NCBI RefSeq assembly: GCF_003096835.1
Contig: NZ_QENZ01000003.1
Location: 124,001 to 188,000, forward strand
DNA: 64,000 bases
From: Balneicella halophila
GTDB lineage: Bacteria; Bacteroidota; Bacteroidia; Bacteroidales; Balneicellaceae
Direction: 5' to 3'
A program made the position numbers and the translations under genes. Positions within the stretch are counted from its first letter, which is position 1. The number at the start of each line of letters is the position of its first letter. Shown here piece by piece: positions 56,581 through 57,463 of the stretch. The notes under the pieces are model-generated. The model saw nothing but the letters and a program-made list of their open reading frames with translations. It was not told the DNA's origin and made no database searches.

Positions 56581-56967
56581 ATGATTTCCCCCTTGAATAC
56601 ATTTACAAAAGGGGAGCGACTGCGAAAAAAACAACACTTAGATGCTCTTTTCCAGTCCAATGAGAGTTTTATTGAGTTTCCATTTCGCGTCGTTTACTGT
56701 AAGATACCAACAAACGATATTTCTCCAGTAAAAGTACTGATTAGTGTTCCAAAACGACGAATAAAAAAGGCTGTGGATCGGAATTTGCTAAAACGCAGAA
56801 CACGAGAAGCATACCGAATAAGTAAAGAAAGTTTGTGCCAGCATATTGGAAATATAGGTGATACTTATGCTATTGGTTTGGTGTATGTAGGTAATGAAAT
56901 ATTACCATATTCAACAATTTTGAAGTCTGTTGCAGTTATTATTCAAGAACTTAAGTCAAGATTATGA
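56581..56967 (+). CDS. rnpA: Ribonuclease P protein component
   Basis: A 128-residue basic protein that assists RNase P RNA in processing of tRNA 5' ends. [20 protein letters not shown] at the N-terminus and [24 protein letters not shown] (RNR motif) in the middle are diagnostic. The gene is between hemD and yidD, not beside rpmH as in most bacteria. It overlaps yidD by 4 bases (ATGA). Confidence 0.96.
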
Positions 56968-57182
56968 AATATTTGGTGCAATTATTCATTTTCCCAATAC
57001 GAATTTATCAAAAGTTCATTTCGCCTCTCACCCCTTCATCGTGTCGTTACTATCCTACCTGCTCGTCGTATGCTATACAAGCATTACAAAAACATGGTAT
57101 TTTCAAGGGAAGCTTTTTGGCTATAAAGAGAATTTTATCTTGTCATCCTTGGGGCGGAAGTGGTTATGATCCTGTACCTTAA
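56964..57182 (+). CDS. yidD: Membrane protein insertion efficiency factor YidD
   Basis: A 72-residue peptide with the family pattern [25 protein letters not shown], containing two conserved Cys, then an amphipathic helix and [12 protein letters not shown] at the end. YidD helps membrane insertion through Sec/YidC. Its place behind rnpA is the classical arrangement. The tandem small-RNA units follow at once. Confidence 0.96.
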
Positions 57183-57189
57183 TCGGTTT

Positions 57190-57245
57190 TTAACCTCATT
57201 TAACGCATGCTTAACCCCTATTAACAATTTATCGAAATATATTTG
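57190..57245 (+). promoter_or_regulatory. Phased TTAAC array and -7 box of small RNA unit 1
   Basis: Four TTAAC copies start at 57190, 57200, 57211 and 57221 (steps of 10, 11 and 10 bp), followed after 12 bases by TATATTTG (57238-57245). No TTG -33 element is present; the array sits in its place, as for an activator that binds direct repeats on one face of the helix. Confidence 0.7.
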
Positions 57246-57250
57246 TACCA

Positions 57251-57325
57251 TGAAAATTTTTCATAGTTAGTAAGATTTAGGTTAGTTTTTAGAGGCAATT
57301 CATTTTATGAGTTGTCTCTTTTTTT
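57251..57325 (+). ncRNA. Candidate small RNA, unit 1
   Basis: The predicted transcript is about 75 nt, from a start roughly 6 bases after the -7 box to the end of a T run. Its 5' end can form a perfect hairpin (ATGAAAA/TTTTCAT, 57250-57264). The single-stranded core TCATAGTTAG-TAAGATTTAGG-TTAGTTTTT is nearly identical in unit 2. A 12-bp stem with two wobble pairs (57291-57302 with 57308-57319) and a T run form the terminator. There is no worthwhile reading frame (only six codons after the first ATG). Regulatory function is inferred. Confidence 0.65.
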
Positions 57326-57330
57326 ATTAT

Positions 57331-57386
57331 TTAACCTACATTAACGCTTTGTTAACTACCATTAACTATTTCTATAAATACATTTG
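57331..57386 (+). promoter_or_regulatory. Phased TTAAC array and -7 box of small RNA unit 2
   Basis: TTAAC starts at 57331, 57341, 57352 and 57362 (again 10, 11 and 10 bp); TACATTTG (57379-57386) follows after the same 12-base gap. Every element is shifted by exactly 141 bp from unit 1, although the bases between them differ. Confidence 0.7.
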
Positions 57387-57391
57387 TAATG

Positions 57392-57463
57392 TACAAATTT
57401 TCATAGTTAGATAAGATTTAGGTTAGTTTTAGAGGTAGTTTTAAGAACTGCCTCTTTTTTTTT
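57392..57463 (+). ncRNA. Candidate small RNA, unit 2
   Basis: The predicted transcript is about 72 nt. It shares with unit 1 the core TTTTCATAGTTAG, one extra A, then TAAGATTTAGGTTAGTTTT and AGAGG. The terminator stem is AGAGGTAGTT (57431-57440) with AACTGCCTCT (57446-57455); its bases differ from those in unit 1 but pair just as well, which is evidence for a selected RNA structure. The T run overlaps the thiL stop codon on the other strand. Confidence 0.65.

Follow-up and report, generated by a model that had tools for sequence, protein, structure and literature searches.

Tandem predicted FopS-like small RNA genes behind phased TTAAC arrays in Balneicella halophila, and their relatives across the Bacteroidales

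A 64,000-nucleotide stretch of the Balneicella halophila genome (hereafter the window) contains, within positions 57190-57463, two tandem units offset by 141 bp, which judging from sequence are relatives of the Bacteroides small RNA FopS (Rfam RF04319) and are named here FopS-like, not FopS. Both units have the same order of elements, namely four copies of TTAAC spaced 10, 11 and 10 bp apart, 12 nucleotides, a TAnnTTTG box, a core and an intrinsic terminator (Table 1); the coordinates confirm this arrangement, which had been proposed in the original prediction. The RNAs probably act in trans to repress outer-membrane-protein mRNAs, under activation by a regulator of the OmpR/PhoB type bound to the array. 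The new elements are the conserved phased operator and a range without RbpB, the protein that binds FopS in B. thetaiotaomicron.

Table 1. Features of the two units, in window coordinates.
Feature	Positions	Strand	Basis
Unit 1 operator (putative), 4x TTAAC (57190, 57200, 57211, 57221)	57190..57225	+	Register kept in other families
Unit 1 -7 box TATATTTG (TAnnTTTG), 12 nt past last TTAAC	57238..57245	+	Sequence match
Unit 1 FopS-like sRNA, ~74-77 nt	57250..57326	+	Covariance model R1, 59.4 bits; start by analogy with FopS
Unit 1 seed/core TTTTTCATAGTTAGTAAGATTTAGGTTAGTTTT, antisense to mRNA translation start	57257..57289	+	Alignment, duplex energies
Unit 1 terminator, stem 57291-57303/57307-57319, then U run	57291..57326	+	Folding, covariation
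Unit 2 operator (putative), 4x TTAAC (57331, 57341, 57352, 57362)	57331..57366	+	Sequence match
Unit 2 -7 box TACATTTG, 12 nt past last TTAAC	57379..57386	+	Sequence match
Unit 2 FopS-like sRNA, ~73 nt	57391..57463	+	RF04319, 27.5 bits; R1, 55.7 bits; start inferred
Unit 2 seed/core TTTTCATAGTTAGATAAGATTTAGGTTAGTTT	57398..57429	+	Alignment of copies, duplex energies
Unit 2 terminator, stem 57431-57440/57446-57455, then U run	57431..57463	+	Folding, covariation

As had been claimed for the -33 element, no TTG occurs 17-23 nt upstream of either TAnnTTTG box; the nearest lies 30 nt upstream of the unit 2 box, and none is present within 45 nt upstream of the unit 1 box. The terminator stems of the two units are built from different bases, also as predicted, and the folding z-scores of the units were -4.1 (unit 1) and -1.9 (unit 2). 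Since FopS RNA begins 5 nt past TTTG, the 5' ends would by analogy lie near 57250 and 57391, giving RNAs of about 75 nt. The pair is preceded by a gene that we take, from its translation, to be yidD (56964-57182, + strand), and a presumably thiL-like gene on the - strand, named in the same way, ends at 57462; no gene on the same strand was found downstream of the units.

A covariance model (R1) built only from the copies of this genome recovered exactly seven such RNAs, with scores of 55.7-74.7 bits and the next match at 33.7 bits. RF04319 also matched, in the whole genome, C3:625707-625779 (43 bits), C3:215372-215442 (36 bits) and C3:625560-625628 (22.5 bits), the first and last of which form another tandem pair, 147 bp apart. 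A weak RF04319 match at C3:357875-357948 was noticed through an antisense-seed search as well, and the copy at C4:106108-106175, previously unseen, was found by its promoter signature alone. The terminator stem covaries, 11 of 13 pairs being changed on both sides (score of 0.604 against 0.390 in shuffles), although some covariation has to be expected, the structure deriving from the same alignment. The array is carried whole or in part by the seven copies: all six promoters with a box had at least three of the four TTAAC copies in register (shuffle mean 0.00), at -17, -27, -37/38 and -47/48 from the box and almost nowhere else, and copy U3 has no TAnnTTTG box in register.

Array matches with at most two mismatches numbered four in the window against 0.47 expected, a count reached by none of 100 shuffles, and three exactly phased TTAAC copies were found nowhere else in the 2.09 Mb genome (reversed-pattern control, one match). 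The array is therefore no accident of base composition or order. A genome search for the promoter only (TTAAC N12 TAnnTTTG) returned six sites at exactly 12 nt, five of which belong to FopS-like RNAs; at spacings of 11-13 nt, 15 matches barely exceeded the 13 of the reversed control, so that the spacing is informative at exactly 12 nt only. A degenerate two-copy array with at most three mismatches gave 52 matches in the genome against 118 in the control, and therefore no wider regulon could be drawn. Looking for arrays before other genes had been proposed with the original prediction and gave a negative answer: none of comparable quality was seen in front of the protein genes of the genome, which is unusual for a response regulator and speaks against our main reading. 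Near the RprXY operon (L258 1333-1347), two TTAAC copies stood out of register and were not counted.

The relatives compared all came from other families of the same order, which also includes genomes rich in canonical FopS copies. R1 matched 129 of 295 genomes at E <= 0.05, about nine times the chance expectation (these E-values are rough), and 96 of 183 genera; sequences like TTTTTTCATAGTTAAGGTTTAGGTTAA with a terminator were found in many families. FopS-like RNAs are therefore, at the level of sequence, order-wide, which places them beyond the published range of FopS, confined to the Bacteroidaceae (PMC11697453). The position of TTAAC relative to the box was tabulated for 53 loci with TAnnTTTG within 120 nt upstream. 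In three families (f11, f35 and f80; 15 promoters), which took no part in finding the motif, an exact TTAAC stood at -17 in 8 promoters and at -37 in 12, and TTAAC with at most one mismatch at -27 in 9/15 and at -47 in 10/15, with the offsets between the phased positions empty or nearly empty. At least three of the four phased copies were present in nine of these promoters (shuffle mean 0.03); loci inside a family are related, and the independent count is about four families with a handful of distinct arrays. The 12-nt spacing thus recurs before related RNAs in three other Bacteroidales families, and one locus (L181, genome G225) has the complete layout of the window, TTAAC-TTAAC-TTAAA-TTAAC, 12 nt and TATTTTTG. 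The prediction of two tandem small RNA genes with an array promoter is borne out by the seven genomic copies, by this layout in three other families and by the covarying terminator, and the phasing, whose absence from relatives had been named as a point of refutation, recurs in the same register in other families.

No TTAAC array of this kind was found at 32 loci from the remaining families, and 5 of the 53 loci have in its place, at 22-24 nt upstream of the box, an inverted ATGTTnnATAACA element. Canonical FopS loci of Bacteroides-like type (L037-L044, L187, L192, L204 and L206) carry an inverted repeat, ATGTTnnATAACAT, about 22 nt upstream of TAnnTTTG, likely an operator for some other regulator and perhaps the missing link to the bile salts that induce FopS. 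Tandem pairs or triplets of FopS-like RNAs occur in several families (L065-L067, L079, L259, L260 and L070), as in the window, and the duplication extends to the entire array in G225 and G079.

Proteins of the OmpR/PhoB type bind direct repeats of some 5 bp placed every 10-11 bp, and the PhoP boxes of Bacillus consist of TTAACA-type direct repeats 10-11 bp apart next to the promoter, an arrangement shared by the TTAACA-like repeats of the window. Five OmpR-type regulators were found in the genome, comprising two PhoB-like proteins (L221 and L222; best match TIGR02154 PhoB, 218 and 230 bits, under the equivalog cut-off of 296), one RprY-like protein (L223; 353 bits against a cut-off of 370) and two others. 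The most conserved DAP-seq motif of PhoP from Riemerella anatipestifer, also of the Bacteroidota, is TTTAACA (PMC9603813); a paper on B. fragilis PhoB yielded no box sequence. The putative binding site described here differs from such boxes in its copy number, which reaches four, in its constant 12-nt distance from the -7 box and in standing before sRNA genes. Given the two PhoB-like regulators and the Riemerella motif, a PhoB/PhoP-type activator of the array is the leading idea, not a result. Such a regulator would bind the repeats on one face of the DNA and turn on transcription from the TAnnTTTG promoter lacking the -33 TTG, the last repeat lying near the place of the missing element, and several sRNA copies would then respond together to one signal. 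A delimited operator with few candidate regulators opens the way to a direct test of which signal feeds a Bacteroidales outer-membrane sRNA circuit.

An activator of another DNA-binding class is a possible but somewhat doubtful candidate for the TTAAC repeats: searches did not name the factor, and the FopS genes of Bacteroides use a different upstream element (the inverted ATGTTnnATAACAT), whereas the OmpR/PhoB-like repeat pattern, the Riemerella PhoP motif (PMC9603813) and the two PhoB-like regulators argue for the PhoB/PhoP type. Extending the latter reading, we tentatively propose, with somewhat less than even confidence, that outside the Bacteroidaceae a PhoP/PhoB-type regulator has a dedicated, almost purely FopS-like sRNA regulon, reached by way of a fixed operator of four repeats; a single two-component signal would then shut down the synthesis of outer-membrane transporters without RbpB.

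At gathering level, Rfam detected only a tRNA in the window and neither of the units. Unit 2 aligned to the complete RF04319 model (positions 1-71) with 27.5 bits (E 0.02-0.03) and the best copy in the genome with 43 bits, both under the gathering cut-off of 56 bits, and unit 1 had no Rfam match of its own. The suggestion of a flavobacterial sRNA family had to be abandoned, since Flavo-1 gave no match in the window even at E 5-10 and, among known families, the Bacteroidales FopS comes closest, though matched weakly, with the core as an anti-start-codon seed. In the reverse direction, R1 also retrieved loci above the RF04319 cut-off (called FopS) in G018, G058, G029, G002 and G059. FopS RNAs are multicopy Bacteroides sRNAs that repress SusC translation, susC being repressed by pairing of this anti-start kind (PMC11697453). 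The RNAs of the window resemble those of B. thetaiotaomicron (BTncRNA_FopS) in length (65-75 nt), copy number (14 there, 7 here), TAnnTTTG start, and an unstructured 5' seed (TTTTCATRGT...TAGATTT.AGGTTA) followed by an intrinsic terminator, an organization seen in the seven-copy alignment, the consensus fold and the covariance model alignment. Pairing with the starts of SusC mRNAs, as in FopS, is predicted for five of the seven copies and less clearly for U4 and U6. They differ in the seed (CATAGTT here, CATGGTATT in FopS) and in the promoter, which has the -7 box and TTAAC direct repeats here and is of the canonical sigma-ABfr type with a -33 TTG in FopS. RRM_1 (PF00076) had no match at E 0.001 in the genome (98.2% complete), with a positive control in Bacteroides ihuae, so RbpB seems to be absent, and FopS-like RNAs can exist in a genome where it is not found. 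Because the Rfam score, the promoter type and the RbpB partner, all three tested, depart from those of FopS, the units were not filed under that name, but they probably work like FopS.

Two further comparisons place the units among known regulators. GibS of B. thetaiotaomicron has the R1 seed of FopS and binds start-codon regions (PMC7366714), the kind of site with which the units are predicted to pair, but it is 145 nt long, about twice the length of the RNAs in the window, and has a PM2 promoter and a second seed, R2. The units have no sequence relation to MicF, OmrA/B and RybB of another phylum, which also have other chaperone biology. In enterobacteria an envelope-linked regulator (OmpR, PhoP or sigma-E) drives these sRNAs, which act around the start of outer-membrane protein mRNAs to block them, a scheme like the one proposed for the units.

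The resemblance to FopS is unlikely to reflect convergence on start-codon antisense instead of descent, even if any anti-start seed in the Bacteroidota contains TTTTCAT and the score stays under the Rfam cut-off, since the matches are reciprocal between models, the layout is the same (5' seed, short linker, terminator), both groups are multicopy with the same TAGATTT(A)AGGTTA tail, and intermediates occur across many Bacteroidales families. More improbable still is a reading of the array as a site for a repressor or as a structural (nucleoid or curved DNA) element, with constitutive sRNA promoters. DNA is also bent by A/T-rich repeats every 10-11 bp, and the sequence does not reveal the direction of control; however, the motif is sequence-specific, with the C of TTAAC kept in 41 of 51 units, the distance to the -7 box is exactly 12 nt in four families, and the missing -33 element suits a class II activator.

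Units 1 and 2 are best read as tandem paralogues in a seven-member set whose single-stranded 5' part (TTTTCATAGTT...TAGGTTA) would pair around the start codon of mRNAs for exported and outer-membrane proteins, including SusC/TonB receptors, and block their translation, the 3' part serving as intrinsic terminator. Read in reverse complement, the core gives a translation start region, TAACCTAAATCTTA.CTAACTATGAAAA. An ATG close to the expected start of each unit would allow short peptides (MKIFHS, MYKFS) or leaders, but we rejected this reading: the cores of the two units differ by a 1-nt indel, changes among the seven copies break the frame although the letters of the core are retained, the peptides show no conservation and no same-strand gene follows.

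Across 84,980 genomes, from which records of the B. halophila genome itself may be missing, the core pattern had six exact matches, five of them on the other strand at the starts of genes of 140-406 aa, over the start codon, and several of the genes have lipoprotein-type signals. The matches in Pedobacter, Epilithonimonas and others were ruled out as sRNAs, being mRNA starts on the opposite strand. Within the B. halophila genome 18 copies of WAACTATGAAAA were counted, compared with 5 for the reversed control, and 6 of the 18 are the RNAs themselves. Duplex energies (without accessibility) of the sRNA copies were compared for 19 TonB/SusC starts, for 56 window genes, which include one TonB receptor, and for shuffled sRNAs. 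TonB/SusC starts were preferred over window genes by U1 (p = 7e-4), U5 (2e-4), U2 (0.007), U7 (0.0095) and U3 (0.03), weakly by U4 (0.10) and not by U6 (0.26); at most 1 of 100 shuffled sRNAs did as well for U1, U2, U3, U5 and U7, and none for U1 and U5. This pairing signal is partly generic, because the translation starts of the genome are A-rich and have ATGAAAA in common.

ATGAAA stands at or just before the RNA start, facing TTTTTTCAT, in unit 1 (57250-57264), L160, L170, L190 and L193; being self-complementary, this stretch might mask the seed or let two RNAs pair. One locus (L115, G000:C3:691490-691801) encodes a TonB-receptor plug domain with its frame broken by one TGA, a possible pseudogene. 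Finally, at L016, a Pedobacter mRNA start matching the antisense core, the product has a double-glycine-type leader, LTQNEQLSVAGG, and from its sequence is likely a secreted peptide precursor.
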